From: Mangrovicella endophytica | GTDB taxonomy: Bacteria > Pseudomonadota > Alphaproteobacteria > Rhizobiales > Rhizobiaceae | DNA: 64,000 nucleotides | Reading direction: 5' to 3' | Assembly: GCF_002893625.1 (NCBI RefSeq) | Contig: NZ_PKMZ01000003.1 | Location: forward strand, 124,001 to 188,000 | Shown here: one piece after another, positions 2,999-27,976 of the stretch | Layout of the letters: each line of letters begins with the position of its first letter | Numbering within the stretch: position 1 is the stretch's first letter | Translations under genes and position numbers: made by a program | The notes under the pieces: generated by a model | Told to the model about the DNA's origin: nothing | The model's database searches: none | The model's input: the letters and a program-made list of their open reading frames with translations, nothing else

Positions 2999-5141
<2,143 letters not shown>

Positions 5142-5142
<1 letters not shown>

Positions 5143-5173
5143 GGGCAGCCTTCACGGAAGGCCTGCCCTTTTC
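5142..5173 (+). terminator. Intrinsic terminator after cmk
   Basis: A stem of AGGGCAGCCTTC against GAAGGCCTGCCCT, with one bulge and an ACG loop, begins at the last base of the cmk stop and is followed by TTTT. It separates aroA-cmk from rpsA. The remaining roughly 240 bp to rpsA hold no gene. Confidence 0.65.
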
Positions 5174-5416
5174 GTCTGTGCGGAAGCGGGCGCCGATCGT
5201 GCCTCAATCCCGTGCCTGACCGCTTCGCGCATTGAATGAACTCTGCTTACCGGCCGGTCCGCCGCGCCGAACGCCGTCCGTTTCCGCCCTTGGCGAAGGA
5301 CGGCGGGTCCATCTGGAGCCTTCGTGCGACCGCTGGACCGGACTGCCGGCAAGCACCCGCAACGCTGACCCAAGGCGCGCCGCCTTCCCAATGTGGAGGG
5401 CCTTCAAGGAGAAAGA

Positions 5417-7114
5417 ATGTCTAACGCAAGCCCGTCCCGCGATGATTTCGCGTCGATGCTCGAAGCCTCGTTCCATGACAACGATGTCGCCGAAGGCGCC
5501 GTGGTCAAGGGAACCGTCGTCGCGATCGAGAAGGACATGGCCGTCATCGATGCCGGCCTGAAGGTCGAGGGCCGTGTCGCCCTCAAGGAATTCGGCGGCC
5601 GCACCGGCGGCGAGCTCAAGGTCGGCGACATCGTCGAGGTCTATGTCGAGCGCATCGAGAATGCCCTCGGCGAGGCCGTCCTGTCGCGCGACAAGGCTCG
5701 CCGTGAGGAGAGCTGGGTCCGCCTCGAGGTCAAGTTCAACGCCGGCGAGAAGGTCGAAGGCCAGATCTTCAACCAGGTCAAGGGCGGCTTCACCGTCGAC
5801 CTCGACGGCGCCGTGGCCTTCCTGCCGCGCTCCCAGGTCGACATCCGTCCGATCCGCGACGTGACGCCGCTGATGAACACGCCGCAGCCGTTCCAGATCC
5901 TCAAGATGGACAAGCGCCGCGGCAACATCGTCGTGTCGCGCCGCACCGTGCTCGAGGAGAGCCGTGCCGAGCAGCGCTCCGAGATCGTCCAGAACCTCGA
6001 AGAGGGTCAGGTCGTCGAGGGCGTCGTCAAGAACATCACCGACTACGGCGCGTTCGTCGACCTCGGCGGTATCGACGGCCTGCTGCACGTCACCGACATG
6101 GCCTGGCGCCGCGTCAACCATCCGACCGAGATCCTGCAGATCGGCCAGACGGTTCGCGTCCAGATCATCCGCATCAACCAGGAAACCCACCGCATCTCGC
6201 TCGGCATGAAGCAGCTCGAGGCGGATCCTTGGGAAGGCATCGGCGTCAAGTACCCGATGGGCGTGAAGGTCTCCGGCCGCGTCACCAACATCACCGACTA
6301 CGGCGCGTTCGTCGAGCTGGAGCCGGGCATCGAAGGCCTGATCCACGTTTCCGAGATGAGCTGGACCAAGAAGAACGTCCATCCGGGCAAGATCCTGTCG
6401 ACCTCCCAGGAGGTCGAGGTGGTCGTGCTCGAGGTCGATCCGGTCAAGCGCCGCATCTCGCTGGGCCTCAAGCAGACCCTGCAGAACCCGTGGGAAGCCT
6501 TCCGCGATCACTTCCCCGTCGGCGCGATCGTCGAGGGCGAGGTCAAGAACAAGACCGAGTTCGGTCTGTTCATCGGTCTCGACGGCGACGTGGACGGCAT
6601 GGTGCACCTGTCCGACCTCGACTGGAACCGTCCGGGCGAGCAGGTCATCGAGGAGTTCAACAAGGGCGACATGGTCAAGGCGCAGGTTCTCGACGTCGAC
6701 GTCGAGAAGGAGCGCATCTCGCTCGGCATCAAGCAGGTCGGCGGCGATCCGTTCGTCGATGCGGCTGAAGCCGGTGAGATCCGCCGCGGCGCCATCGTCA
6801 CCTGCGAGGTCACCGACGTGAAGGACGGCGGTCTCGAGGTGAAGATCGTCGACAGCGACCTGACCTCGTTCATCCGCCGCGCCGATCTCGCCCGCGATCG
6901 CGACGAGCAGCGCCCCGAGCGCTTCTCGGTCGGCCAGAAGGTCGATGCACGCGTCACGCAGTTCGACAAGAAGGCCCGCCGCATCGGCGTGTCGATCAAG
7001 GCGCTGCAGATCGCGGAAGAGAAGGAAGCGGTCGCCCAGTACGGCTCGTCCGACTCGGGCGCCTCGCTCGGCGACATCCTCGGCGCCGCCCTCAAGGGCC
7101 GCGACTCCGAGTAA
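5417..7114 (+). CDS. rpsA: 30S ribosomal protein S1
   Basis: S1 binds mRNA and brings it to the 30S subunit during initiation. The protein has 565 residues with six S1 (OB-fold) repeats. The repeats at about residues 200-270 and 285-360 share the NITDYGAFVDL/VEL signature, and later repeats have KNKTEFGLFIGL and similar. AAGGAGAAAGA precedes the ATG at 5417; an in-frame ATG at 5393 lacks a site. Strong codon bias fits a highly expressed gene. Confidence 0.97.
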   Translation: MSNASPSRDDFASMLEASFHDNDVAEGAVVKGTVVAIEKDMAVIDAGLKVEGRVALKEFGGRTGGELKVGDIVEVYVERIENALGEAVLSRDKARREESWVRLEVKFNAGEKVEGQIFNQVKGGFTVDLDGAVAFLPRSQVDIRPIRDVTPLMNTPQPFQILKMDKRRGNIVVSRRTVLEESRAEQRSEIVQNLEEGQVVEGVVKNITDYGAFVDLGGIDGLLHVTDMAWRRVNHPTEILQIGQTVRVQIIRINQETHRISLGMKQLEADPWEGIGVKYPMGVKVSGRVTNITDYGAFVELEPGIEGLIHVSEMSWTKKNVHPGKILSTSQEVEVVVLEVDPVKRRISLGLKQTLQNPWEAFRDHFPVGAIVEGEVKNKTEFGLFIGLDGDVDGMVHLSDLDWNRPGEQVIEEFNKGDMVKAQVLDVDVEKERISLGIKQVGGDPFVDAAEAGEIRRGAIVTCEVTDVKDGGLEVKIVDSDLTSFIRRADLARDRDEQRPERFSVGQKVDARVTQFDKKARRIGVSIKALQIAEEKEAVAQYGSSDSGASLGDILGAALKGRDSE

Positions 7115-7151
7115 GAGGCCGGCCGGGCAACCGGCCCCTCAACGCCATAAG

Positions 7152-7185
7152 AAAGGGCCCGCGGGAGCGATCCCGCGGGCCTTTT
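7152..7185 (+). terminator. Intrinsic terminator after rpsA
   Basis: GGCCCGCGGGA pairs with TCCCGCGGGCC around a GCGA loop and is followed by TTTT. A second GC-rich hairpin (GGCCGG / CCGGCC, about 7118-7137) lies between it and the rpsA stop. Confidence 0.85.
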
Positions 7186-7307
7186 GCTGTCGGCATCATG
7201 CCGCCTATCGCCGCTCCATAACCTCGGCCATGCGGCAGTCAGAGAGCGATGGACTTGCCGCTGCGACAAGGCGGATCAGCCGCTGACATATGACAGCTCT
7301 AAGCCGC

Positions 7308-7475
7308 TCAGCCGCCGACGTCCGACGGCTTGGAAACGGCCGCTGCGGCCGCGGCGACATCGACGCCCGGATCGGCGGCGCCTGGCTTCTTGCCCGGCTT
7401 CTTGCGCGCCATCTCCATGTTCTGCGCCTCCATCGGCGTCACCTGCGTATCGGGTTTCTTCGGAACCTCGCCCAT
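7308..7475 (-). CDS. Small Ala/Pro/Lys-rich protein, function unknown
   Basis: A 55-residue frame opening MGEVPKKPDTQVTPMEAQNM, followed by a Lys/Pro-rich stretch and an alanine run. No signal peptide or membrane segment is seen. Support comes from a strong AGGAGG ribosome site six bases before the ATG at 7475; an upstream in-frame ATG at 7556 lacks one. I do not recognise a family. It could be a short soluble protein of Hyphomicrobiales. Confidence 0.5.
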   Translation of the reverse strand: MGEVPKKPDTQVTPMEAQNMEMARKKPGKKPGAADPGVDVAAAAAAVSKPSDVGG

Positions 7476-7724
7476 GGCGTCCTCCTGCCGTGCCCTGCCG
7501 GAAAGACGCGAGGCGCCCGCGACGGGTTCCGCGATCCACGGTCGAGCTGCCGGCACGCGTCAGACGCGACGCCGCAGCGATGCGTTAACGCCGTGTTGAC
7601 CATGGCGCGCAATTTGCGCCGTTCCGCCCTGCAACCGCGGTTCTACCGGCCCGTTTCCCGCCGAAGCTTAACCGAGGCTTGAGCCACCCCCGTCAGGATC
7701 GCGCTCAAGGCACAACCGGACGGC

Positions 7725-8246
7725 ATGCGCGTGGACACCGCCTCGACCTTCAAGGACGATCTCGACTTCGGCGAGGTACTCGACCAAGTGGCGCGTGCCG
7801 CCCGCGACGAGGAACCCGTCATCAATCTCGCCGTGCGGCGCCCATCCGGCGTCTGGCGTATCGTCGGGGCGGCTGCAGGCCTCTTTGCGGTCCGGCGCGA
7901 AGCCGCCGATCGGGCCTATTTCGCCGATCGCGAGGTGCCGCCGATCGACGCCGATCCGGTGCCGCTGGACGAAGTGGTCCCGCCGGCAGGCGAGAGTGAG
8001 CCGGCCGAGCCTCCGCTTGCGGCTGCGGCCGAGATCGACCCCTCCCGCTTCAGCACCAATGCCGAGGACGTGGCGCGCGAACTGGGCCTGAAGCCGGAGC
8101 TGAAGCTGCGCGACCTTCGCCGCATCCGCCGCACCTTTGCGGCGGACAATCACCCGGACCGCGTGCCGGCCGAGTGGCGCGAGGCCGCCAACCGCCGCAT
8201 GACCATCGCCAATATGATGATCGACGAGGCAATTGGCAGGAAATAG
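7725..8246 (+). CDS. Protein with a C-terminal J-domain-like segment
   Basis: A 173-residue protein. The first half is not recognisable. From about residue 110 it reads as the end of a DnaJ J-domain: AEDVARELGL, LRDLRRIRRTFAADNHPDRV with the HPD tripeptide, then REAANRRMTIANMMIDEAI. J-domains stimulate Hsp70 ATPase, so a DnaK co-chaperone role is possible. There is no Gly/Phe or zinc region. It lies convergent with the SelA-like gene. The ribosome site is weak. Confidence 0.65.
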   Translation: MRVDTASTFKDDLDFGEVLDQVARAARDEEPVINLAVRRPSGVWRIVGAAAGLFAVRREAADRAYFADREVPPIDADPVPLDEVVPPAGESEPAEPPLAAAAEIDPSRFSTNAEDVARELGLKPELKLRDLRRIRRTFAADNHPDRVPAEWREAANRRMTIANMMIDEAIGRK

Positions 8247-8329
8247 CCGGCCCGCCCCCGCCTGCCGTCGCCGGTCGGGCGGAGCACTCCGAACGCGCTA
8301 CCCCCCTCAGCTTGGCATCGGCATAGCGC

Positions 8330-9523
8330 TCAGTCCGGCCAGGCGAGCAATGCGGCGCTGTTTTTGCGCGGCACCATCATGGCATTGGCTGGTCTCGTCG
8401 GCGCTTCCAGGAGCGCGACGAGCGCCTCGGCCACCGTGTGTTCCTCGCCGGGATGCAGATTGCACGGATCAAGGAAGAAATGGCCGCGCTCCACCTCGTG
8501 GTTGCGCACCATGATCGGCGGCGAGGCGCTCGCGAGCGCCGCCGCCAGGCCGGCGGCGGTGTAGCCGCTGTCCGGACCGACATCGACCTGCAGCCGGTCG
8601 AGCGGGTTGTTCGTCGGGTCCGGGATCACATAGGCATCGATGCCCGGTCGTCCGGCGAGAGCGGCCCGCCACACCTCGAGCGCCGCCTCCTCGCGACGGC
8701 GGATGCCAGCATGGTCGCGCTTTTCCCAGGCCTCCAGCGCGGCCATCGCGCCGGCGACCGTCTCCTTGCCGACCTTCATCGCCCGCGCCAGCCCGCGGTT
8801 CTGCAGATAGGCCGCGCGGACCAGATCCTTGCGGCCCGCGACGATACCGCTGGTGGGTCCCCCCAAGAACTTGTGGCCGCTGTAGATGACGACATCCGCG
8901 CCGCGCGCGAGAAAGCCGGTGAGGTCGTATTCCGACGCCGCGTCGACGATCACCGGCACGCCCTTCTCGTGGCAGATGGCCGCAAACTCCTCCAGCGACA
9001 GCATGCCGTACTGCACCGAATGATGGGTGACGACATAGAGGCCGGCCGCAGTGCGGTCCCGGATCGCCTCACGCACATGATAGTCCTGCGTGATGCTGAC
9101 GGTGCCGGCGGGCACCACGGTGGCGCCGGCAAGCCGCGCCGACTGATCGACCGGCGCGCCGTAGTTCACGATGTGGCCGAGCTGGACGATCACCTCGTTC
9201 TTCAACCCCTCGATATCGTCCGGCAGACGCTCGATGGCGAGGAGGTTCGTGCCCGTCATCGTGCCGGCGACAGCCATGGAGATGCCGGCCGCGCAGCAGG
9301 CGGTGATGAAACCGGCCTCGCCGCCGGTCAGCCGTGCGACGACCGTGTTGGCCTTGCGCTGCAGGTCGTCCATCTCAACCCACTGGCTGGCGATCTCGCT
9401 CATTGCCTCGATCGCTTCAGGGACGATGATCGAGGCGCCGAGCGCCGTCATTGTGCCAGAGACGTTGATGATCGGCCTGAGGCCGAGGCGCTGGCGGATC
9501 GGTTCGTTCGGGCGGTAGGTCAT
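8330..9523 (-). CDS. SelA-like PLP-dependent enzyme (fold type I)
   Basis: A 397-residue relative of selenocysteine synthase (SelA) and of PLP-dependent ammonia lyases of the DgaE type. Near the N-terminus is [14 protein letters not shown]. The likely PLP lysine is in [12 protein letters not shown] (about residue 219), with VDAASEYDL upstream as the Asp strand. True SelA is unlikely: the gene sits last in an amino-acid ABC transporter operon, just after ridA, and no selenocysteine genes are nearby. A beta-elimination or deamination reaction releasing an enamine that RidA hydrolyses would fit. The exact substrate is unknown. Confidence 0.8.
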
Positions 9524-9562
9524 AGTGGCGGTCCTGGTTCGATGAGGACGGTCGAGCGGGCT

Positions 9563-10057
9563 CTACGCCGCGATCTCGATCACGGCCTCGATTTCGACGC
9601 TGATATTGCCGGGCAGCGAGCCGACGCCGATCGCCGAGCGCGCATGTGCGCCGATCGGGCCGAACACCTCCATGAAAAGGTCCGAGCAGCCGTTGATGAC
9701 CCGCGGGTGGTCGCCGAAGTCCGGTACGGCATTGACGAAGCCGAGCAGCTTGACGATCCGGGTGACGCGGGAGAGATCGCCGAGCGCGGCATGCATCACG
9801 CCGAGGAGGTTCAGCCCGGTCAGACGGGCATGGCCATAGGCCGCCTCGATCGAGACCTCGCCGCCGACCTTGCCGGTTTGGAGAACGCCGCGTGCATCGA
9901 GCGGCCCCTGGCCGGAGAGGAACAGCAGCTGCCGGCTTTCCACGAAGGTGACGAAGTTGGCGATCGGGCTCGGGGGCGCCGGAAGGTCGAGCCCGAGGGC
10001 GGCGAGCTTGGCGTAGGGCGACGGCGCTGCCGCCGTCTCGGGGGTCGAGGCTTGCAA
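9563..10057 (-). CDS. RidA/YjgF family enamine/imine deaminase
   Basis: A 164-residue RidA-family protein. RidA proteins hydrolyse reactive enamines and imines such as 2-aminoacrylate. Visible blocks are LFLSGQGPLDARG, the LTGLNLLGVMHAALGDLSRVTRIVKL helix and ARSAIGVGSLPGN, with the arginine equivalent to the catalytic Arg of RidA. The start is TTG at 10057, 13 bp after the ATPase stop. It is translated between the transporter ATPase and the SelA-like enzyme, suggesting it detoxifies that enzyme's product. Confidence 0.88.
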   Translation of the reverse strand: MQASTPETAAAPSPYAKLAALGLDLPAPPSPIANFVTFVESRQLLFLSGQGPLDARGVLQTGKVGGEVSIEAAYGHARLTGLNLLGVMHAALGDLSRVTRIVKLLGFVNAVPDFGDHPRVINGCSDLFMEVFGPIGAHARSAIGVGSLPGNISVEIEAVIEIAA

Positions 10058-10070
10058 CGGATTTCAGCTT

Positions 10071-10877
10071 TCAGAAGTGCGAGGCGCGGAAGCGGGCCAG
10101 GAAGGCGCCGAGCCGCTGGTTGTGCGAGGCGGCGGCAAGCACCTCGGACGGCGGACCGGCGGCAGCGACCTTGCCATCGGCCATGAAGACGATGCGGTGG
10201 CTGGCATCCCGGGCAAAGGCGATCTCGTGCGTCACCATCAGCATGGTCATGCCTTCGGCGGCCAGACTCCTCACCACCTCCAGCACCTCGCCGACGAGCT
10301 CGGGATCGAGCGCCGAGGTGATCTCGTCGAGAAGCAGGATCTTCGGCTCCATGGCGACGGCGCGGGCGATGCCGACGCGCTGCTGCTGGCCGCCGGAGAG
10401 TTCGCCCGGCAGGCTGTCGGCCTTGTGGCCGAGACCGACGCGCGACAGCCAGTGCTCGGCCGCGGCGCGCGCCTCCGCCTTGCTCTTGCCGCGCACCTTG
10501 CGCAGGCCCAGCATGACGTTCTCGGCGGCGGTGAGGTGCGGGAAGAGGTTGAAGCTCTGGAACACCATGCCGGTGTCGGCCCGGATGCCCGCAAGCTCGC
10601 GCTCGCCGCGGCGAACGCGGCCTCCGGCGTCCTTGTAGCCGACCTCCCGCCCGTCGATCCGGATGGAGCCGCTGTCGTAGGTCTCTAGGAAGTTGACGCA
10701 GCGCAAGAGCGTGGTCTTGCCGCTGCCCGAGGGGCCGATCACGGTGACGACCTCGCCTTTGGCGACGCCGAGATCGACCGAGCGCAGCACCTCCACCTTG
10801 CCGAAGGATTTGGTCAGGCCCTCGATGGCGAGAAGCGGAGCATGTGTCGCCGCGCCGCCCTGTGTGGACTGGATCAT
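10071..10877 (-). CDS. Amino-acid-type ABC transporter ATPase
   Basis: The ATP-binding subunit of a polar amino acid importer (GlnQ/HisP type), 268 residues. Walker A is GPSGSGKTTLL (about 48-58), the Q-loop lies in MVFQSFNLFPHLT, the signature is LSGGQQQR, and Walker B is ILLLDEITSALD. The ATG at 10877 has GGGAG nine bases upstream; another in-frame ATG at 10901 would overlap the permease gene. It lies 4 bp after that gene in the same operon. Confidence 0.93.
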   Translation of the reverse strand: MIQSTQGGAATHAPLLAIEGLTKSFGKVEVLRSVDLGVAKGEVVTVIGPSGSGKTTLLRCVNFLETYDSGSIRIDGREVGYKDAGGRVRRGERELAGIRADTGMVFQSFNLFPHLTAAENVMLGLRKVRGKSKAEARAAAEHWLSRVGLGHKADSLPGELSGGQQQRVGIARAVAMEPKILLLDEITSALDPELVGEVLEVVRSLAAEGMTMLMVTHEIAFARDASHRIVFMADGKVAAAGPPSEVLAAASHNQRLGAFLARFRASHF

Positions 10878-10881
10878 CGGC

Positions 10882-11532
10882 TCACTCCCGGATGAAGGCA
10901 TAGCGTCGCTCCAGCCGCCGGCTGAGCGAGGACAGCGCGTAGTTCACGAGAAAATAGATGACGGCGCCGAGGAGGTAGAGCGGCAGCGCGTCGTAAGTCC
11001 GGCCGATCACCTGGTTGATCGCGTGCATCAGGTCGGTGACGCCGAGCAGCGAGACCAGCGCGCTGCCCTTCACCGCGTCAGTGACGCCGTTGACGAAGGG
11101 CGGCAGAAAGCGCCGCGTCGCCTGTGGGAAGATGACGTAGCGAAGCCGCGCCGCGAAGGTGAGGCCGATGGCCTTTGCCGCCTCCGCCTGCCCGGCGGGG
11201 ATCGAGGCGATGGCGCCGCGCACATATTCTACGACTTGCGCCACCTTGAAGAGGGTGAGCGCCAGGACGGCCGCGGCAAAGGCGTCGAGCTGCAGCCCGA
11301 TTGCCGGCAGGCCGTAATACACGAAGAAGATGAGGACGAGGATCGGGATGCCGCGGATCGTGTCGCTGAAGATGCGCACGGCAAGGCGCAGCGGCAGCGG
11401 CCCATAGACGAGGCCGACGCCCAGCGCGACGCCGACGACGAGCGAGATGACGACGACCAAGCCCGACACGGCAAGGGTGATCAGGAAGCCGTGCCAGAGG
11501 AAGGGCAGCGCGTAGAGGATCTGGCCGATCAT
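10882..11532 (-). CDS. Amino acid ABC transporter permease
   Basis: A 216-residue inner-membrane permease of the HisM/GlnP family. It has about five membrane segments; the N-terminal one spans LITLAVSGLVVVISLVVGVA. The cytoplasmic EAA-like loop reads QAEAAKAIGLTFAARLRYVIFP. It should pair with the neighbouring permease and the ATPase. Its start is 1 bp from the stop of the upstream permease gene, so the two are translated together. Confidence 0.92.
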   Translation of the reverse strand: MIGQILYALPFLWHGFLITLAVSGLVVVISLVVGVALGVGLVYGPLPLRLAVRIFSDTIRGIPILVLIFFVYYGLPAIGLQLDAFAAAVLALTLFKVAQVVEYVRGAIASIPAGQAEAAKAIGLTFAARLRYVIFPQATRRFLPPFVNGVTDAVKGSALVSLLGVTDLMHAINQVIGRTYDALPLYLLGAVIYFLVNYALSSLSRRLERRYAFIRE

Positions 11533-11533
11533 C

Positions 11534-12196
11534 TCAGCGCACCCTGAACCGGCGCTCGACCAGCCGCAGGGCGAAGAGCAGCCCGTAGCCGGTGACGAGA
11601 TACATGGCGGTGACGACGAGATAGACCTCGACGATGCGGAACGTGTTGAAGTTGATCCACTGCGCGCCGTAGGTCAGCTCCGGCACGGCGATGACCGAGG
11701 CGACGGACGTGTCCTTGAACAGCGAGATGAAGGTGTTGGAGAGCGCCGGCAGGGTGATGCGGATCATCGTCGGCAGCCGGACGTGGAAAAAGCGCTGCCA
11801 TGGCGTCAGGCCGATGGCCTTGCCGGCGTCAAGCTGGCCGCGCGGCACAGCCTCCAGCCCGGAGCGGAACACCTCGACGAGATAGGCGCCGCTATAGATG
11901 GACAGCGTCGCGACGAAGGAGGTCGGCGCGTCATAGGCAAGATTGAGCGCCTTCGGCAGGCCATAGAAGACGAGATAGACGAGCAGGATCAGCGGCACGT
12001 TGCGGATGAATTCCACATAGGCGCCGATGACGGCTCGCGCGACGCGGCCGGCCGAGACGTACCAGGTGGCCAGCACCAGCCCGATCACGATGCCGATGGC
12101 GATCGACAGCACGGCCAGCTCGAGGCTGAGGATGAGGCCGCCCCACAGCTTGTCGAAATGCCGCCAGATCAGGTTGAAGTTGAGATGGTAGCCCAT
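11534..12196 (-). CDS. Amino acid ABC transporter permease
   Basis: A 220-residue permease of the same family as its neighbour. The EAA loop is RGQLDAGKAIGLTPWQRFFH, and RNVPLILLVYLVFYGLP is the conserved second-segment block. The two permeases probably form the heterodimeric channel of one importer. The gap to the upstream binding-protein gene is 83 bp with no terminator seen. Confidence 0.92.
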   Translation of the reverse strand: MGYHLNFNLIWRHFDKLWGGLILSLELAVLSIAIGIVIGLVLATWYVSAGRVARAVIGAYVEFIRNVPLILLVYLVFYGLPKALNLAYDAPTSFVATLSIYSGAYLVEVFRSGLEAVPRGQLDAGKAIGLTPWQRFFHVRLPTMIRITLPALSNTFISLFKDTSVASVIAVPELTYGAQWINFNTFRIVEVYLVVTAMYLVTGYGLLFALRLVERRFRVR

Positions 12197-16357: not shown

Positions 16358-16756
16358 TCAGGCGGTCTCCAGGTCGGTGCGGGCAAAGCCGCCGCCCTTG
16401 TGCAGCAGCGGCTGGCGATAATAACGCGCGCAGGCATAGGCGAAGCAGTCGGTCATGCTGAGATCGGCCGGATGCCCCTGGCCCTTGCCGAAGCGCCGGA
16501 AGGCCTCCAGCGCCAGCGGTGTGATCTGGGCGGGCAGCGACATCACCTTGACGCCGGCAAGCTCCAGGAACTCGTCCATCGCAGCCTCCGCCTCGCCCAT
16601 CGGCAGCTTCAGCACCAGCGACACGGCGGCGGCAGCATGGCAGACCGCGAGCGGCGAGGTCAGCCGCGTCTTGGTGCGCTGCAGGCGGGATGCGAGGTTG
16701 CGCGCCTCGTCCTCGCTCGTCATCATGGCGATCAGCGCCGAGGCGTCGAGGAACAT
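16358..16756 (-). CDS. VapC-type PIN-domain toxin
   Basis: A 132-residue PIN-domain ribonuclease, the toxin of a type II VapBC module. The first acidic residue is in MFLDASALIAMM, a Glu lies in the middle helix, and the distal Asp is in LSMTDCFAYACAR. The start codon overlaps the antitoxin stop by one base (TGATG), so translation is coupled. VapC toxins usually cut tRNA or rRNA; the target here is unknown. Confidence 0.88.
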   Translation of the reverse strand: MFLDASALIAMMTSEDEARNLASRLQRTKTRLTSPLAVCHAAAAVSLVLKLPMGEAEAAMDEFLELAGVKVMSLPAQITPLALEAFRRFGKGQGHPADLSMTDCFAYACARYYRQPLLHKGGGFARTDLETA

Positions 16757-16980
16757 CAGCGCGGCCGGGTGGAACTGCCGGCTTCCGCCCGGGCCTGGGC
16801 CTTCTTGCGGAGGTCGCGGCAGAAGGCTGCGACGAGATCCGGCAGCAGCGGCTTTTCGCGTTCGCGGTCGAGCTCGGCCTGAAGCGCGGCGTGCACAGCT
16901 TCGGTGAGACCGGTCTTGCGCTTGGCGGCGAGTTCACGCGCCAGTGCGTCGGTCTCGGGGTTCTTGATATGGAAGGCCAA
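16756..16980 (-). CDS. VapB-type antitoxin (PSK transcription factor family)
   Basis: A 74-residue antitoxin. The N-terminal MAFHIKNPETDALARELA and the KRKTGLTEAVHAALQ helix match the Rv0623-type VapB family, a ribbon-helix-helix DNA-binding domain. The C-terminus is charged and would wrap the toxin. It lies directly upstream of vapC, and the complex probably represses its own promoter in the region just after 16980. Confidence 0.85.
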   Translation of the reverse strand: MAFHIKNPETDALARELAAKRKTGLTEAVHAALQAELDREREKPLLPDLVAAFCRDLRKKAQARAEAGSSTRPR

Positions 16981-18964: not shown

Positions 18965-20281
18965 CTAAGGCATCGGTGTAGTATGGTTACGCCACACCGA
19001 GCGAGGAAGCGTGTATTGAAAAACTAGTCGTTTCGTCATCTGTAGATGAGCGGGGTCCTCGACCCACTGGATCGTTGCAGGAAGTGATGGGTCGTAGTGT
19101 TCCACGATCGCCAGCACGAAATCATTTCTCACCGCCAGTGCCTGTTGGTATTCCAGATCGGTCAGCGTAGCGGTGCAGATGCCCACCGAACTTTTGACTT
19201 CGACCATCTTAACCTGACCGGCCTTGATAATCTTGAAGTCATATCCGACTTTCTTGCCGCTAACGTCGACTACCAACCACCCTGCCGTTTCCAAGGTTGT
19301 CCTCACAGCCTGCTGTGCGTTCCACCATCCGCTTGTCGCTGGCGGTGGTGGTGATGTGGTCAACCCGATCGAGCTATGGTGCGGTAAGGCCTTCGCCTTT
19401 TTTCCGGCAACCGTTTTCGGAGTTGGTGCCGGAGGGACACCAGGCAACGTCACTGCAGGAACCGCTACCGCGGGACCGGTTGATAGACGCGTCCACGTCA
19501 CCCCTGCCGCGACCAGCGCCAGAGCCTGATGTGCAGCTGACCCTGGGTCATCGTCGAAATAGGCAGCAGCTTCCGCCGGAGTGAAACCGAAATCCGTCAG
19601 GAAATCGGGGACGTCCACATGATTTCGCCCAGCCGCCAGAATGCCGTCATAGTAGATCGCGATGATCAGGGGGGCTATCGGCAGCTTCACGCCGCTGGCT
19701 GGCCTGATTATTCCGGAATAGAAGGTCACGTCCTGGGGATCGTGGACCGTGTATTCGCCGGTGACTGGATCCTTCCGGAACATCTTGGGATTATCCTCAC
19801 CACGATATACCGGCGGCTTCCCCTTGAATTGGCACCATGAATTCGCCAGTGTCTTGGTGCCCACCGGGCGCAGATGCGGACACTCCTTTCGTGAAGCGGC
19901 GACGAAACCCCGTGTCTGCATTTCTTGCACCGAAGCGTAGCAGACGAACCCCTTCTGTAGATTGAGATTGTTGCGCCAGATATTCGAGGGGACGGTCAGG
20001 ATGCCGCCGGTGGTACCGGTGGGAACCTTGTGGTCATCATCGAAGATGATCGCGATCTTATCAGGCGTGCTCCGATTCGGCTTGCTGTATAGATCATCGA
20101 GCAGCTGCTGCAGCTGCCTGGAGTCGATACCGATAGCCGAGCCGACCATCGGAATCTGATTTCCATAGTGCTTGCAGGCGAGGAATATCTGCGCGGCGCG
20201 TCCGCGGAAGCCACTGCCGCCTGCAGCTTCGAGAATCTCAAGCGCCTTGTCGTAAACTGCTTTGGAATTGATCGGGATCAT
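18965..20281 (-). CDS. Candidate restriction endonuclease with a C-terminal PD-(D/E)XK-like domain
   Basis: A 438-residue protein, last gene of the methyltransferase operon, its ATG overlapping the cytosine methyltransferase stop by 4 bp (ATGA). The N-terminal 250 residues are not recognised. A Pro/Ala/Thr linker (about 275-310) leads to a C-terminal domain with GYDFKIIKAGQVKMVEVKSS, an Asp followed by Glu-x-Lys as in DUF3883 or Mrr-like nucleases. Position and motif suggest the endonuclease of the system. Its recognition sequence cannot be read from the DNA. Confidence 0.6.
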   Translation of the reverse strand: MIPINSKAVYDKALEILEAAGGSGFRGRAAQIFLACKHYGNQIPMVGSAIGIDSRQLQQLLDDLYSKPNRSTPDKIAIIFDDDHKVPTGTTGGILTVPSNIWRNNLNLQKGFVCYASVQEMQTRGFVAASRKECPHLRPVGTKTLANSWCQFKGKPPVYRGEDNPKMFRKDPVTGEYTVHDPQDVTFYSGIIRPASGVKLPIAPLIIAIYYDGILAAGRNHVDVPDFLTDFGFTPAEAAAYFDDDPGSAAHQALALVAAGVTWTRLSTGPAVAVPAVTLPGVPPAPTPKTVAGKKAKALPHHSSIGLTTSPPPPATSGWWNAQQAVRTTLETAGWLVVDVSGKKVGYDFKIIKAGQVKMVEVKSSVGICTATLTDLEYQQALAVRNDFVLAIVEHYDPSLPATIQWVEDPAHLQMTKRLVFQYTLPRSVWRNHTTPMP

Positions 20282-21468
20282 GCCGCCAACTTCGTGCTGG
20301 AACCGCGTGCCTTAGCGAGATAGCTGACTGGCGTTATCTCCCCACGCATCAGCGCCTGGTATGACGATGCAGGTCTTTTCGCATATTCTAGATCAGATCC
20401 GTCCTGGCCCGCGGTCAAACGAGGCAGATCCCCAATGGCCTCGTCGACGGTAACGACCGGCTCCGCATCGAGAAGCCCTCCGGCCGAGAGCGAACACCAT
20501 TCGAGAGGCTTCCGTGGCGGCGCCATGCCTCCCCGTCGAACACCGACGATCACCACCCTAACGCGTCTTTGGGGAACGCCGAACTCGGCGGCGTTCATCT
20601 TCCAAACCTGGGCGTCGTATCCAGCCTTCTCGAATCCGGCGAGAATGCGCTGAAGGAATGCACCGCCCGACATGCTGAGCAGCCCAAGGACGTTCTCAAA
20701 TACGAAAACGTCGGGCTTCATGCGATCCAGGAGGATGGAATAGCGTGCATGAAGATGATTACGCGCATCATCTTCTGACCGCTTCTTGCCGCCAGTCGAG
20801 AACCCCTGACAGGGAGGACCGCCAACGAGAGCGAGAGGCCTGACGCGGTCCCGGCCTTCCGTCGCCGCCACCAGATGCTCGATCACCAGGTCGTCATTCA
20901 TGTCGCCGACGATCGCAAGCGGGGCTACGTTCTGGTTGAATGCGTGCACCGCGAACTTGTCAAAATCCGTAGCCGCGAGGGTCTTCCACCCCTGCCACTT
21001 GAAGCCGAGGGACAGGCCACCGCAACCGGCAAACACGTCTACCATGTCGCCGGCCGTGCCGAGCGTCTCGGCAACCTGCATAGCCAGCAGCGGCGGGACT
21101 GCGTTGCCGATCTGCTGGCAGACGGCACGCTGCGATCCATTGAAGACAAAGCTGTCGGGGAAGGATTGCAATCGTGCCGCTTCGCGGTGCGATATGGTTC
21201 TATCCTGGGATGCATCCGGATGCATGAAGCACCCGTTGCCGGGTCGGGTGTAGTAGGTTCCGATCGTGTAGCTCGGAGCATCGGGACGCAGGCGACCGTA
21301 ATAGGTCGATCGCGATCCCTTGCCCGCCGCATAGCTCTCCCTGATCTGCGCCAGGCGAGCAGAAGGCACGCTAACGGGAATGTCCTGCCAATTGCCGCCA
21401 GGCGGCACGGAGCGGGCGAATTGAAGGTCGAGCTCACTCAGCGTGGCGCTTTGATGATTGGAGATCAT
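20278..21468 (-). CDS. Circularly permuted C5-cytosine DNA methyltransferase
   Basis: A 396-residue m5C methyltransferase whose motif order is permuted. Motif IX (REAARLQSFPD, about 95-105) and motif X (QIGNAVPPLLA, 119-129) come first. They are followed by motif I (DVFAGCGGLSLGF, 144-156), motif IV with the catalytic Cys220 (GGPPCQGFS), motif VI (ENV, 258-260) and motif VIII (QRRVRV, 300-305). The expected target-recognition segment just before IX is N-terminal (STYYGRLRPDAPSYTIG). All catalytic residues are present. The ATG at 21468 is 5 bp after the adenine methyltransferase stop, with GTAAGG as ribosome site. Confidence 0.9.
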   Translation of the reverse strand: MISNHQSATLSELDLQFARSVPPGGNWQDIPVSVPSARLAQIRESYAAGKGSRSTYYGRLRPDAPSYTIGTYYTRPGNGCFMHPDASQDRTISHREAARLQSFPDSFVFNGSQRAVCQQIGNAVPPLLAMQVAETLGTAGDMVDVFAGCGGLSLGFKWQGWKTLAATDFDKFAVHAFNQNVAPLAIVGDMNDDLVIEHLVAATEGRDRVRPLALVGGPPCQGFSTGGKKRSEDDARNHLHARYSILLDRMKPDVFVFENVLGLLSMSGGAFLQRILAGFEKAGYDAQVWKMNAAEFGVPQRRVRVVIVGVRRGGMAPPRKPLEWCSLSAGGLLDAEPVVTVDEAIGDLPRLTAGQDGSDLEYAKRPASSYQALMRGEITPVSYLAKARGSSTKLAA

Positions 21469-21473
21469 GGGCC

Positions 21474-23102
21474 TTACTCGGTCCAGGCCGCGACGCTGGT
21501 CAATGCCTCGCGCTCCCATTCTTCTAGTTTGGGGAAGTCGTCCAGCAGACGCGCCATATCATCGCGATCCAGCCCATATGCCTTGGCCACGGAGATTTCG
21601 AGGCGACGTTCGGCGGGCACGCCACCACCATGCATTGCACCACGTGCCAGCGACGACAGGCTCTTGATCAGACTCGCGTCAAGGGTGGGTATGCGAGCCT
21701 GTCGCACCACTCCTAGCGACATGTGCCCGGTCCTGAGCCGCTCACGGACCTGCGCTTCGACGACAAACGACGACAGCAGCGCATGAAGCGCCAGGGTGCG
21801 GTCAGGATCACCATCCCGGTAGCACGCCACGTGCAGGGAATTGCCCGCCACCCATCCCGCTGGAATGACGGTTCCGATCATACGGCGCTTCGACGTGGCA
21901 CGGGCGACGTCGCGCCAGACGGCACGCGGCCTGGCAGCAGAATGGAAGCCACCGCACAGTGCAGGCCGAACGGACATCGTCGGCTCGTCGACGATGCCGT
22001 GTCGCGCGATCATACGGCCCTTGATGAACGGGTGACTGGAACCAGCGACCAGCTTTTCAGAAATGCGGGTTTCGTCGAGTTCACGACCGAGCCAGAGGTC
22101 CGTTGCCCCTTCGCCTTCGAGCGACTGAAGCGTCGACATCCCAACGAACAGGTCGGCTAGCTCGTGGACGCCTGCAGGACGGCCCGTCGGAATCGTCCAG
22201 CCGCGAGCCTCCATGGCCGGCGCCTTGAGCATGATCGTTTGTTCACCCGCTGGAAGACGATTGGCATCGAAGCAACGGATGCGTCCGCTCGCCGAAACGC
22301 GACCGCCAACCCGCATCGTCAGCGCGACGACCGATTGGTCCACCCGATCGAACAGACGAGCCTCGGACGGATACGCTGCGGCGTCGACGAGCGTACCAGA
22401 ACTGAATGCCTTGCGACGCATGGGGACGGAGGACTGGTCGCCCATGATGGTGGCTGGAAGGATCACACCGACAACGCCCCCCTTCCGCGCGATGGACATG
22501 CACAAGTCCCAGCCACATCGGGCGAGATTCGTGCCCCAACCGCCCCAGGCTCCATCCGCACGTGCGTCGGGGAAGCGATTGTCGAGCACCCGGGAGGCAG
22601 CACGCAGATCCGTTTTATATCGCTCCGCGTCCTTGAGCGTGAGGTGCTTGATCTCGCGACTATCGGGCTTCAGCAACTCCCATGGGGGATTCGTGATGAC
22701 GAAGTCGAATCGCGGCGACAGGTCGCTTGCGAACGTATCGCCCACGATCACGACCGTCTCCACGTCCATGCCCAGACGAAGTGCAGCAGCGCGTACATGA
22801 TCGCCGGCGGTCTTTGCAGCAGCCGCTTCACGATCACGCAGCTCTATAACCCAGGGCAGCTTCGCAAGCTTAGAGTTCCGCGCGGCCACCGACAGCAGGG
22901 CCATCACCAGACGACCATCGCCACAGAATGGATCGGTTGCAACGACCTTGGTCAGCCCGGTCGTCTTCAGCGCGGAAACCATCTGCTCCGCGATGTCATC
23001 TGCCAACTGGGCAGGCGTGTAAAAGCGTCCGGCAACCCTCTCTGTGAGGGTCTTGCCATTGTAGGCGTGCTCGCCGGCAGTGTGGCTCGCAAGATCAAGC
23101 AT
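21474..23102 (-). CDS. N6-adenine DNA methyltransferase of a type II R-M system
   Basis: A 542-residue class I methyltransferase. RFYTPAQLADDIAEQM (26-41) precedes motif I VVATDPFCGDGRLV (53-65); motif IV is NPPW (138-141), the N6-adenine signature. The C-terminal half should carry the target-recognition domain, as in Eco57I- or Alw26I-like enzymes. It is the first gene of a three-gene operon with a cytosine methyltransferase and a candidate nuclease. Its start overlaps the end of an IS1595 transposase remnant, so its original upstream region may have been replaced. Confidence 0.85.
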   Translation of the reverse strand: MLDLASHTAGEHAYNGKTLTERVAGRFYTPAQLADDIAEQMVSALKTTGLTKVVATDPFCGDGRLVMALLSVAARNSKLAKLPWVIELRDREAAAAKTAGDHVRAAALRLGMDVETVVIVGDTFASDLSPRFDFVITNPPWELLKPDSREIKHLTLKDAERYKTDLRAASRVLDNRFPDARADGAWGGWGTNLARCGWDLCMSIARKGGVVGVILPATIMGDQSSVPMRRKAFSSGTLVDAAAYPSEARLFDRVDQSVVALTMRVGGRVSASGRIRCFDANRLPAGEQTIMLKAPAMEARGWTIPTGRPAGVHELADLFVGMSTLQSLEGEGATDLWLGRELDETRISEKLVAGSSHPFIKGRMIARHGIVDEPTMSVRPALCGGFHSAARPRAVWRDVARATSKRRMIGTVIPAGWVAGNSLHVACYRDGDPDRTLALHALLSSFVVEAQVRERLRTGHMSLGVVRQARIPTLDASLIKSLSSLARGAMHGGGVPAERRLEISVAKAYGLDRDDMARLLDDFPKLEEWEREALTSVAAWTE

Positions 23103-23574
23103 GGGCGCTGGCCGTCCGCAGCGCTTGCGCGCCCACGAAAAAATGGATCATCGACATCACCGTCCCTCTTTCGGCTGCGATTTTCTCGGGCTTGATGTAG
23201 CCGCCGAACCAGCCTCCATTGATCTCGACCTCCCCTTCCAGCGTAATATCGTCAATGCAGTGCTTCAGGCCGTCACCGAATTTCTGCTGGAGCAGGAAGG
23301 CCGTCCTATAGTGAATTCCGATGTCCTTCATCAGCGTGCTGGTTGCGTTGCCCTTCGACCTAAGGATGGAGGTGCGCAGCGCCTTGAGCAGGGTCGGCAA
23401 CGGCAGCTTGGTATGGTGGAAGCCCGATCCGCTGGTGAGGGGGCGAAGCGGCACGGAAAGTCGGTGATTATAGACGAATTCCTTACCCCTAAATTCAGTT
23501 CGGTCACGCCGCCCCCGATCGCCCGTCATTGCTGCTTCGCAGCTAATAGAATCAGCCGCCGATTCGGCAGGCAA
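23095..23574 (-). pseudogene. IS1595-family transposase remnant
   Basis: The segment LKALRTSILRSKGNATSTLM, then KDIGIHYRTAFLLQQKF and EGEVEINGGWFGGYIKPEK, match the middle of IS1595 (ISXO2-like) transposases. The N-terminal zinc ribbon and the rest of the DDE domain are missing. The first catalytic Asp (normally VEIDGAYFGG) is Asn here. The frame ends inside the start of the adenine methyltransferase gene. It cannot be active. Confidence 0.75.
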
Positions 23575-23604: not shown

Positions 23605-24720
23605 TCAGGCCCCGTTGCCTTGAAGCATCGCCAGAAGTCTTGCCCTCAGATCGGGCTCGAGCACGTCACCTCTGCCGTCCGGCGCCCTCTCCCCGGCGCC
23701 CTTCCGAAGCTCTTCCATGATCTCTTCCTGCCGCTCACGGGCCACGGAGCCGTAGCTTGTGAATGTCGTCATGACGTCGTCGTGTCCGAGATTCTGGGAC
23801 CACGCCTTGAACGCCTCCGCGTCTCCCTTGCACTTCGTCATGCCGAAGCGCGCCAGCGTTTTCCGCAGGCTATGAGGGTTGAAATAGGGTAGGCTAGCGG
23901 TTTCAAAACTCTCGCGAAAAACCCGACGTATCGGATCGGCATTCGACCAATTCGCTCTTTCGAGGCCGGTGGGTGCGAATTGCCCCTCCTCCAGCCCGAC
24001 CTTCGTCTTGGGAAACAGCGGATCGTCGGGACCGAATAATAGCTGCTCTTCGAGGTAGGCTTTCCAGTCCCGAACGATGGCTTCGATATCGTCGCCGATC
24101 GGAAAGAACCAGGTGGGAAACGACTTCCGGTTTTTAGTGCGAACCGTCCGTGCATCCTGATCGAGAAGCCGCCGCTCCATGTCGACGTGCTTTAGGGACA
24201 GCGACGCCACCGCGTCGTCTCTCGCTCCCGTCAGGAAGATGAAGGCAATCAGCGCCCGATCGCGCTTTTCGATTGCCGATTCGGCCGGCATCGATGCGAT
24301 TACGCGGCGCACCTGTTCCATGCTCGGCGCACGTTGTTCGCGGGTCGCCGTCGCGATCCGAGCGTCGTTCGCGGACGGGTTGAAATAGTCGGCATCCGAA
24401 TAGCTGATCTTCGATTTGTAACCCTGTTGCCCTGCCAACCAATGGATAAAGCGACCAACCGCTTTGAGCCGCGCATAGCTCGTCGCCTTAGCGAGCGGCC
24501 GGCCGGTCTTCGGGTTCAAATCCTCTTCGAGCTGCCGCTTGAATTTGCGCGCCTGTTCGATATTGAACCTTGCAAAGTCCCGCCAGCCGGTCGACGCCTC
24601 GAAGCTGGCGATCGCTGCCAAAGCCTGATCGACACTCTTCGGAGCCATACGGTGCGCATCCTCTAGATAGATGGCGTAAGCGCGCTTGATCCGCTCATTT
24701 TTGGGATGGTGTTTTCGCAC
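23605..24720 (-). CDS. Tyrosine recombinase / integrase
   Basis: A 371-residue phage-integrase-family protein. The N-terminal SAM-like domain is followed by a catalytic domain with the first Arg in LTGARDDAVASL, the H-x-x-R box in NPHSLRKTLARFG, and LGHDDVMTTFTSYG giving the second His and the nucleophilic Tyr. It starts at GTG (24720) with GAGGTGA upstream, 4 bp after the HTH gene, so AlpA, HTH and recombinase form one operon. The recombination site it serves is not evident; the tRNA-Leu site is more likely served by the other integrase. Confidence 0.9.
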   Translation of the reverse strand: MRKHHPKNERIKRAYAIYLEDAHRMAPKSVDQALAAIASFEASTGWRDFARFNIEQARKFKRQLEEDLNPKTGRPLAKATSYARLKAVGRFIHWLAGQQGYKSKISYSDADYFNPSANDARIATATREQRAPSMEQVRRVIASMPAESAIEKRDRALIAFIFLTGARDDAVASLSLKHVDMERRLLDQDARTVRTKNRKSFPTWFFPIGDDIEAIVRDWKAYLEEQLLFGPDDPLFPKTKVGLEEGQFAPTGLERANWSNADPIRRVFRESFETASLPYFNPHSLRKTLARFGMTKCKGDAEAFKAWSQNLGHDDVMTTFTSYGSVARERQEEIMEELRKGAGERAPDGRGDVLEPDLRARLLAMLQGNGA

Positions 24721-24724
24721 GGGT

Positions 24725-25198
24725 TCACCTCATCGTTTCCAAGTGATCATTTGGACAGGGGGAACGGCTCTCGCCTATGCGTTCGTCCCCCTGCACGATT
24801 GAAACCGTCACCAGTGCGCGAAGCTCGGGCATGCGGGCGAGCGAAAGCCGCTTGTGCATTACGGTCGCACACCGCCCGCAGAGCGCGCGCATCATCCCGC
24901 CGGTGGTTGTAAGTGGTCGAACTTCGACATCTGCGAAGGCGGGGTCACGCGGTGCGTGGCAGGAGAAGCAGAAGGCTTGATGGAGCTGGCAGGGCTGGCT
25001 TTTCTTCTTTCGTCCATCAAGGAAGGCGATCAACTCGCTGCCCATGATCAGCGCCGGCCGCTGATCGGTGAGAGCCGGCAAGCCGTTCTTCACCCATCGC
25101 CGAACAGTTCCTTTCGAGGCTTTCAGCGCACGCGCCGCCTCGTCGACGGTGTAGCTGCGATGCTTCTTGATCGCCCTGCCGTTGGGGCGCCGGGACAC
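24725..25198 (-). CDS. Helix-turn-helix protein with a Cys-rich C-terminal region
   Basis: A 157-residue protein starting at GTG (25198), 2 bp after the AlpA stop, with GGGAG upstream. KKHRSYTVDEAARALKASKG starts a MerR/excisionase-like helix-turn-helix. The middle has CFSCHAPRDP and LCGRCATVMHKR, two Cys pairs that could bind zinc. Proteins of this build accompany AlpA and integrases in alphaproteobacterial islands; a role in excision or its control is inferred. Confidence 0.75.
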   Translation of the reverse strand: MSRRPNGRAIKKHRSYTVDEAARALKASKGTVRRWVKNGLPALTDQRPALIMGSELIAFLDGRKKKSQPCQLHQAFCFSCHAPRDPAFADVEVRPLTTTGGMMRALCGRCATVMHKRLSLARMPELRALVTVSIVQGDERIGESRSPCPNDHLETMR

Positions 25199-25200
25199 GC

Positions 25201-25407
25201 TTAAAGAGCTCCCGTCTCGATCAGCGCTCGGATGTCTTCGACGCGCCAGACCGTAATCCGGCTGCCGAGCTTTGTCGGCTTCGGGAAGCGTCCGTCGCGC
25301 ACGCCTGCCCACCATGTCGACTTGGACACGGGGATCGGCCCGGCCGGCGCGAGAATGGATCGAAGGCGGAGGAAACCGGTCGCCGGCAGATTTGCGGGAT
25401 GCGTCAT
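25201..25407 (-). CDS. AlpA-family helix-turn-helix regulator / excisionase
   Basis: A 68-residue protein. FLRLRSILAPAGPIPVSKST and WWAGVRDGRFPKPTKLGSRI, then TVWRVEDIRALI, give the AlpA pattern of small Xis-like DNA-binding proteins. AlpA activates integrase or excision genes in known islands. It is the first gene of the AlpA-HTH-recombinase operon. Confidence 0.85.
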   Translation of the reverse strand: MTHPANLPATGFLRLRSILAPAGPIPVSKSTWWAGVRDGRFPKPTKLGSRITVWRVEDIRALIETGAL

Positions 25408-26494: not shown

Positions 26495-27706
26495 TCAACG
26501 ATTCCGGCGCCCAGTTTGATCTCCGCGCGTCACGGAAGCGATCTTGGCGGACCACCACTCGCTCATACGAACCCGCTCGTCCCAATACGCCGAACGATGG
26601 TATGCGCGGCGCACCTCGTCGGCACCAACATGGCCCAGCTCGGCTTCAATAGCGTCCGAATGCCAGAGGCCGCTTTCGTTGAGGAGGGATGACGCCGACG
26701 CGCGGAATCCGTGCGAGGTCATCTCATCCTTTCCGAAGCCCATACGGCGAAGGGCTCCGTTCAACGTGTTCTCGCTCATCGGACGCAAGGTCGTATGGAT
26801 CGCTGGGAAGACGAGCCGACCGGAGCCGGAGCGCTTGCGGACGTCTTCGAGGACAGCAACTACCGCACCGGGTAAAGGCTTGCGATGCTCGCGCCGCATC
26901 TTCGTCTTTGCGGCCGGGATGATCCAGACTCGCTTGGCTAAATCGAACTCGCTCCATTCGGCTTGCCGCAGTTCGCCAGGACGCGGATAGAGAAGAGCGA
27001 GAAGCTGAAGCGCCGCCTTCGTATCACTCGAACCTTCGTAAGTCGCGATGGCACGCAAGAGACCGCCGAAGTTCTGCCAGTCGATGAAGGCGGCACGATG
27101 TGTAACGGTTGGCGCCGTCAGTGCGCCGCGCAACCCGTAAGTCGGATCGTTCTCGGCGCGCGCCGTCGCGATCGCGAAGCGGAATACTTGACCGATGAAG
27201 GCGCGAAGGCGGCGCGCGGTCTCAAAGTTGCCCTGGGCCTCTACACGTCGAAGCGGAACGAGAATTTCCGCCGCACTGATCTCCTTGATAGGCCTGCCGC
27301 CAATATCCGACAGGACTTGTCCAAGAAGCCAGCGCTTCTTCGTCAACGTCGCTTCGGCTTTGCCCTCGCGCTCGGCTTTGGATAGCAGCTCGCGGGCAAC
27401 TGCCTCGAAGGTCGTTGCGCGAGATGCCGTCGCCGCGATGCGGTCGAGCTTCGATTTCTCGGATGGATCGACGTTTCGCTTCAGAAGCGTCTTTGCGTCG
27501 TCTCTTCGAGCCCGTGCGTCAGACAGCGAGACAATGGGATAGGCACCGAAGGCAAGAAGCTTCTGTTTTCCGTCGAAGCGATAGGCCAAGCGCCAGAGCT
27601 TAGATCCATTAGGCGATACCAACAGATGAAGCCCGCCCCCGTCGCTATGCTTCCTAGGGCGATCGGATGGCTTCAAAGCCCTAATTTGCAGGTCGGAGAG
27701 CGGCAT
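26495..27706 (-). CDS. P4-type tyrosine integrase
   Basis: A 403-residue integrase with the N-terminal DUF4102 arm-binding domain (MPLSDLQIRALKPSDRPRK, SDGGGLHLLVSPNGSKLWRL). In the catalytic domain the first Arg is in LYPRPGELRQAEW, HGFRASASSLLNE gives H-x-x-R, and ELGHVGADEVRRAYHR gives the second His and the Tyr. It reads away from tRNA-Leu, starting 186 bp from its 3' end, so it is the likely island integrase. I chose the ATG at 27706, where the family opening begins; the frame is open to 27781. Confidence 0.92.
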   Translation of the reverse strand: MPLSDLQIRALKPSDRPRKHSDGGGLHLLVSPNGSKLWRLAYRFDGKQKLLAFGAYPIVSLSDARARRDDAKTLLKRNVDPSEKSKLDRIAATASRATTFEAVARELLSKAEREGKAEATLTKKRWLLGQVLSDIGGRPIKEISAAEILVPLRRVEAQGNFETARRLRAFIGQVFRFAIATARAENDPTYGLRGALTAPTVTHRAAFIDWQNFGGLLRAIATYEGSSDTKAALQLLALLYPRPGELRQAEWSEFDLAKRVWIIPAAKTKMRREHRKPLPGAVVAVLEDVRKRSGSGRLVFPAIHTTLRPMSENTLNGALRRMGFGKDEMTSHGFRASASSLLNESGLWHSDAIEAELGHVGADEVRRAYHRSAYWDERVRMSEWWSAKIASVTRGDQTGRRNR

Positions 27707-27887
27707 CGCGGCATCCGCTTGTTGGTATCGGATCGCCTCAGAAGTGCGATCTGCGACTGATACCAACGAAGCTACCAACAAACTTTTCGGATACCAACAC
27801 CCCTTGTCGGACTAAGTCCGACAAAGAAGCTCGGCTTCTTAGGGGTTTGGGCTGCTATCGAGACCGCTTCGGATCGTCTCGGATAGT

Positions 27888-27907
27888 GAATTGGTGCCCA
27901 GGAAAGG
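27888..27907 (+). repeat. Right attachment site within the tRNA-Leu 3' end
   Basis: GAATTGGTGCCCAGGAAAGG covers the last 16 bases of tRNA-Leu (as complement) and four bases beyond. A near-identical direct copy lies at 18606-18624. The crossover should fall inside this block. Confidence 0.5.
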
Positions 27908-27976
27908 ACTCGAACCTTCACGCCTCGCGGCACACGGACCTGAACCGTGCGCGTCTACCAATTCCGCCACCTGGGC
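27892..27976 (-). tRNA. tRNA-Leu (anticodon CAG)
   Basis: An 85-nt tRNA with the long variable arm of leucine tRNAs. The acceptor GCCCAGG pairs with CCTGGGC; the D-arm has GGCGGAATTGGTAGAC; the anticodon loop is TTCAGGT with CAG; the T-arm contains GGTTCGAGTCC; the discriminator is A and CCA is encoded. Its 3' end is the island insertion site. Confidence 0.96.

Follow-up and report, generated by a model that had tools for sequence, protein, structure and literature searches.

Naturally permuted C5-cytosine (m5C) DNA methyltransferases have been described before: the accessible part of a 2018 paper (PMC5944983) names M.BssHII, M.Alw26I, M2.Eco31I, M.Esp3I and M2.BsaI and adds 22 further REBASE sequences, giving 27 permuted enzymes in all, every one of them broken in the variable region. 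In the Eco31I system, as set out in the accessible parts of PMC4659465 and PMC3874165, an m6A and an m5C methyltransferase act on opposite strands of GGTCTC; of the two marks, the first paper detected m6A and predicted m5C. The Esp3I/BsmBI methyltransferases are given as fused in the accessible part of PMC3874165.

We analysed a window of 64,000 nucleotides (the whole stretch of DNA under study) in which a permuted m5C methyltransferase (P0001, M2) forms an operon with a probable m6A methyltransferase (P0003, M1) and a nuclease-like gene (P0002) (Table 1). The original prediction concerned M2, and the two partners were absent from it. P0001 is the m5C partner of a system of the Alw26I/Eco31I/Esp3I type and itself belongs to a family already described. 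Judged from the sequences, the three genes very probably make up a Type IIS-like restriction-modification (R-M) operon of this kind, with P0002 as its predicted cutter.

Table 1 Features of the operon and of the neighbouring integrase gene, with positions in the window.
Feature	Position	Strand	Basis
P0002, putative restriction endonuclease, 438 aa	18965..20281	-	NOV_C (DUF3883) domain, residues 323-396
Candidate PD-(D/E)xK residues of P0002: D348, E361, K363	19193..19240	-	Alignment; catalytic role predicted
M2 (P0001), circularly permuted C5-cytosine DNA methyltransferase, 396 aa	20278..21468	-	ORF, Pfam, PADLOC, alignment, rotation test
M2 motif VIII, QRRVR (QxRxR), residues 300-304	20557..20571	-	Sequence, alignment
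M2 motif VI, ENV, residues 258-260	20689..20697	-	Sequence, alignment
M2 motif IV, GGPPCQGFS, residues 216-224, catalytic Cys220	20797..20823	-	Sequence, alignment
M2 motif I, VDVFAGCGGL, residues 143-152, SAM binding	21013..21042	-	Sequence, Pfam, alignment
M2 motif X, QIGNAVPPLLA, residues 119-129	21082..21114	-	Sequence, alignment
M2 motif IX, REAARLQSF, residues 95-103	21160..21186	-	Sequence, alignment
Five-residue insertion in M2 variable/target-recognition region, residues 46-50	21319..21333	-	Alignment, tree rows
M1 (P0003), probable N6-adenine DNA methyltransferase, Alw26I/Eco31I/Esp3I family, 542 aa, NPPW motif	21474..23102	-	TIGR02987, PADLOC PDLC03365
Tyrosine integrase beside tRNA-Leu (27892-27976), likely carrier of the low-GC island	26495..27781	-	Pfam, position beside tRNA-Leu, GC content

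A permuted m5C methyltransferase and its m6A partner

The P0001 ORF is free of internal stops; an alternative start, the upstream ATG at 21519, is also open and overlaps the end of the preceding gene. The C5-methyltransferase motifs I, IV, VI, VIII, IX and X are all found in the protein. As had been predicted, motifs IX and X lie at about residues 95-129, before motif I, the residue numbers holding on re-reading of the sequence, and sequence and alignment bear out both the intact motif set, including Cys220 in GGPPCQGFS, and a chain break that falls after motif VIII, inside the variable region. Motif VIII is followed by ~90 residues that contain the initial part of this region; the N-terminus begins within the second part. 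This is the arrangement by which type-H permuted enzymes are defined in PMC5944983 (motif X before motif I, variable-region break after VIII).

The permutation of P0001 is real. Pfam DNA_methylase matched the protein in two stretches (E 2.6e-55), and in a genome-wide scan profile positions 235-322 lay upstream of positions 3-164, that is, with the pieces swapped; the host genome's two other C5 methyltransferases gave one-piece profile matches (2-322 and 1-320). In a rotation test whose profile came from 66 conventional ORFs of viral contigs, the score of P0001 rose from 218.2 bits in native order to 332.2 bits when the sequence was rotated at residue 140, and that of the E. coli relative from 210.3 to 336.6 bits. 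For seven conventional control sequences the native order was best or within 0.1 bit of best, five of the seven being among the 66 profile ORFs, cut back to their matching portion, and L100-L102, which belong to these five, giving identical scores. The swapped Pfam pieces and the gain on rotation thus uphold the proposal that P0001 is a circularly permuted C5 methyltransferase.

The match between P0001 and the generic dcm model TIGR00675 is in keeping with a conventional Dcm-like orphan methyltransferase whose motifs had been misread. This reading was rejected on the order of the Pfam pieces, and both the rotation test and the M2 tree, in which 17 permuted rows split from two rotated conventional rows (100/100), argue against it; we see virtually no chance that it is correct. 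An assembly or frameshift artefact fusing pieces of two methyltransferase genes, an objection raised with the original prediction, would likewise be compatible with a two-piece Pfam match in swapped order, and a Roseomonas relative of P0001 is itself frameshifted. However, the same motif order is kept in a single open frame in a Sphingomonas MAG (L005, 95% identity), a viral contig (L085, 78%) and an E. coli homologue (L018, 47%); N4 and H5, two residues close to the breakpoint, do not vary in any of the 10 aligned rows; and dN/dS against L005, calculated by Nei-Gojobori in an implementation written for this analysis, is 0.088 for the whole M2 gene. Because related loci keep the order in one frame and dN/dS is ~0.09, P0001 is not an assembly artefact, and a join of this kind was rejected as close to impossible. 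Purifying selection is seen across the operon: dN/dS against L005 is 0.047 for M2 residues 1-140, 0.09 for M1 and 0.101 for P0002, and against L085 it is 0.074 for M1, the M2 and P0002 values for this pair being not computable with synonymous sites near or past saturation.

An AlphaFold model of P0001 built from six sequences (mean pLDDT 62, with residues 1-100 averaging 29-58 per ten residues) has a core with the class I SAM-binding fold, which is shared by other class I methyltransferases. The suggested superposition on M.HhaI succeeded for this core only, with Z 16.3 over 178 residues (model 127-323), and M.HaeIII gave Z 15.5 over 174 residues (model 140-323); other class I methyltransferases reached up to Z 14.8 in the same list, an RNA-cap methyltransferase at 14.8 among them. 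This structural match does not single out C5 enzymes, and the C5 assignment therefore rests on sequence.

Profile matches and neighbours place M2 in the Alw26I/Eco31I/Esp3I family and make M1 a probable member. Residues 1-386 of P0001 matched the PADLOC MTase_II model PDLC03381 (396 positions) at 8-390 in a single stretch, and residues 2-329 matched PDLC03237 (1036 positions) at 655-986, a model that M1 matched too. M1 matched TIGR02987 over its full length (E 7.8e-83) with 279 bits, below the curated cut-off of 353.5, the next best match among 385 genomes of the class scoring 87 bits. Its identity to the M1 annotated in E. coli Nissle is 31.6%. The Nissle M2 (WP_001295727.1, L168; the same M2 as in L018) is permuted like P0001, with the same breakpoint and 47% identity over residues 1-386, and lies between genes annotated as an Alw26I/Eco31I/Esp3I family m6A methyltransferase and endonuclease. 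The two enzymes share the five-residue variable-region insertion and the type of upstream m6A partner. By contrast, M2 in Nissle is followed by a convergent RE_Alw26IDE-type endonuclease gene, whereas the gene after M2 in the window is co-directional, nuclease-like and unrelated. The M.BssHII system is organised differently. M.BssHII itself is like P0001, by its description in the accessible part of PMC5944983, in being a permuted m5C enzyme with its break in the variable region. Fused M1-M2 proteins (L019, L090, L091 and L095), which recall the fusion published for Esp3I/BsmBI, contain permuted m5C and m6A parts, with M2 identities of 37-53%; they are single polypeptides, whereas the window has two genes.

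That permuted m5C methyltransferases are rare, with M.BssHII as the known example, was also part of the original prediction and has to be corrected. The permuted architecture is known and not rare overall, because the accessible part of PMC5944983 holds five named enzymes and 22 REBASE sequences, and because, of the 5426 complete E. coli genomes, 631 (~1 in nine) contain DNA at least 99% identical to Nissle M2. Most of the permuted m5C methyltransferases examined come from Type IIS-like systems with two methyltransferases. Close relatives of P0001 itself are rare in the genomes sampled: within its class (385 genomes), the best match in any other genome (5.0e-37) covered residues 142-378 only, and its own genome was the single match among 249 of its order (limit 1e-60) and among 349 of its phylum (limit 1e-50), these being overlapping samples with few candidates scored per genome.

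By analogy with Eco31I, M1 would methylate adenine on one strand of an asymmetric site and M2 cytosine on the other strand of the same site, and P0002, if it is the cognate nuclease, would cut that site when unmethylated. In the rotated M2 chain, the N-terminal block (the target-recognition end with motifs IX and X) would pack on the catalytic I-VIII block, the enzyme otherwise working like an ordinary C5 methyltransferase. The insertion at residues 46-50 is found in 11 of the 18 permuted sequences examined, all of them in the Eco31I-like branch, and because P0001 shares it with that branch a GGTCTC-like target is a reasonable guess, and no more than that. GGTCTC is not avoided in the window (48 seen, 45.4 expected), a count that neither supports nor excludes this target; CGTCTC was seen 79 times against 79.2 expected and GTCTC 146 times against 140.2.

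The nuclease-like gene downstream of M2

P0002 matched Pfam PF13020 (NOV_C), which we take to be the former DUF3883, at E 2.5e-10 and 40.7 bits (cut-off 22.1). The remainder of the protein matched no Pfam family at E 0.1, and among Pfam families NOV_C was the only match, with none to RE_Alw26IDE (PF09665). In the Roseomonas record, the stretch homologous to the NOV_C region of P0002 is annotated as DUF3883. The candidate PD-(D/E)xK residues show no variation among the three aligned sequences, one of which is P0002, and a corresponding GYD...EVK is visible in the Roseomonas relative. Comparison with the Nissle endonuclease revealed no meaningful similarity (best E 3.6), an hmmsearch against solved structures found no persuasive match (the top hit, at E 0.021, was a Rab GTPase), and the P0002 model, with a pLDDT of 35, was too low in confidence for use. 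Relatives of P0002 were found in the Roseomonas plasmid only among plasmids, in the L085 contig only among viral contigs (using patterns for close relatives), and in none of the phages; within its order, one of 249 genomes matched, its own.

M1 and M2 could alternatively constitute an orphan epigenetic module, with P0002 as something other than its restriction enzyme (e.g., an unrelated or modification-dependent nuclease). Such modules would have parallels in two archaeal loci (L007, L008) that carry M1-M2 without a NOV_C or RE_Alw26IDE nuclease in the available sequence, and in the phage phiLo (L081) and viral contigs L089, L092 and L093, in which M2 occurs without an M1-like gene or either nuclease; P0002, moreover, has no close characterised relative in the profile libraries searched, and its NOV_C end weakly matches the PADLOC TmtA and HmaA models (best E 4e-06). 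Against this, P0002 shares four bases with the end of M2, and its three relatives (L005, L085 and Roseomonas) all lie directly downstream of M1-M2, two of these neighbourhoods being independent, since L005 was found through M2. DUF3883 has also been called a novel REase domain and counted as a presumed Type II R group (accessible parts of PMC3710099 and PMC10609329, respectively). On balance, we consider the orphan-module explanation unlikely and favour P0002 as the probable restriction enzyme of the operon. If P0002 is indeed cognate, methyltransferase modules and endonucleases can be swapped while their asymmetric specificity is conserved, and there would be, for DUF3883 proteins, a testable partner whose target is predicted.

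Related loci and the nucleases beside them

The window was compared with 19 further permuted or remnant loci, a sample and no census, drawn from search hits of which 5 of 2241 plasmid records and 2 of 694 phage records with a match were opened and 80 of 554 relatives were kept; L085, L087 and L088 are one contig. Most of these 80 relatives (64) were conventional; 8 were permuted, the L085 contig being counted once more among them, 5 were partial and 3 were tandem fusions. An M1-like gene, fused part or remnant accompanied M2 in 16 of the 20 loci, the exceptions being L081, L089, L092 and L093. A NOV_C-type gene lay downstream in four (the window, L005, L085 and L017/L084), an RE_Alw26IDE-type endonuclease was present in eight (L006, L018, L019 and L082 by Pfam; L090, L091, L094 and L095 by similarity), and six had neither in the available sequence (L007, L008, L081, L089, L092 and L093), with only these two kinds scored; L016 (contig end) and L083 (remnant) were set aside from this count. 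The same three-gene set of M1, M2 and a P0002-like gene is found in L005 and L085, and again on the Roseomonas plasmid CP099480, where M2 is frameshifted and the nuclease gene runs across the start of the record.

The split between permuted and rotated conventional rows in the M2 tree fits a single origin of the permutation, short of proof because the outgroup consists of just two rows, one on a long branch. Within the permuted set, the three NOV_C rows grouped together (100/99) as sister to seven Eco31I-like rows (all ten, 100/99). RE_Alw26IDE accompanies four of these seven sister rows, the other three having neither nuclease kind, and it also accompanies four of the seven rows outside the ten. 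The five-residue insertion is common to the ten rows and absent from the other seven; the Roseomonas relative, which is outside the M2 tree, has it too. The M1 tree unites the four NOV_C rows (100/99) and puts Nissle M1 beside them with support that is not strong (83/92); rooted at its midpoint only, it gives no direction of change.

The M2 tree suggests one nuclease replacement as its simplest reading. We incline slightly towards the view that the window represents a nuclease-swapped branch of the Alw26I/Eco31I systems, in which RE_Alw26IDE would have been exchanged for a NOV_C/DUF3883 protein to give a structurally new Type IIS-like enzyme, with a GGTCTC-like site perhaps cut elsewhere. The literature matches listed, REBASE and most subscription journals lying outside their scope, include no report of a NOV_C/DUF3883 protein with Alw26I-type methyltransferases; the swap may thus be new to the literature, while the methyltransferase itself is of a known kind.

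Several of the related loci have features of their own. In the Roseomonas mucosa record (L017, 5944-7239), beside an intact M1, the M2 matches are split between two frames and return to the initial frame at the end; this M2 would be either a pseudogene or the product of sequencing errors. A Vsr gene precedes this operon, in keeping with an m5C enzyme and the repair of deaminated m5C. Viral contigs L096 (3941-6130), L098 (1-2337) and L103 (2363-4579) encode pairs of C5 methyltransferases fused in tandem, with PPCQGFS, ENV and RExARIQ motifs present in both halves, and these look like the duplication stage of the permutation-by-duplication model, as given in the accessible part of PMC5944983. 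In the archaeal MAGs L007 (3545-12012) and L008 (Lokiarchaeota, 4683-11956), M1 and a permuted M2, with no recognised nuclease, are followed in both loci by proteins that are 37% identical to each other and match no Pfam family, with an Arf/Ras-like GTPase gene following as well; these loci hold a conserved methylation pair whose role may be other than restriction. The permuted M2 of Thermus phage phiLo (4986-6185) and of the three viral contigs without an M1-like gene in the available sequence perhaps protects phages against such restriction systems. In L095, two tandem RE_Alw26IDE-like genes (5224-6624 and 6638-8041) lie beside one fused M1-M2.

Genomic setting of the operon

The GC content of 1-kb bins is 0.57-0.63 at 17-28 kb of the window and 0.64-0.72 in the other bins. 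Because this low-GC region coincides with an integrase beside tRNA-Leu, the R-M system probably lies on an integrated island. No exact repeat of at least 14 bases of the tRNA-Leu end was found elsewhere in the window; at 14-22 kb there is one 11-base match to it, at 18606, which could be due to chance. Near the low-GC end of the region is a gene pair for a PIN-domain toxin and an Rv0623-like antitoxin (16358-16980, minus strand). Upstream of M1 lies an IS1595-like transposase fragment (23095-23574, minus strand), to which a longer ORF upstream of M1 in L005 (4132-5175) appears similar by eye. The island also contains a second tyrosine recombinase gene (23605-24720, minus strand), adjoined by an HTH gene (24725-25315) that resembles excisionases below the model cut-off.
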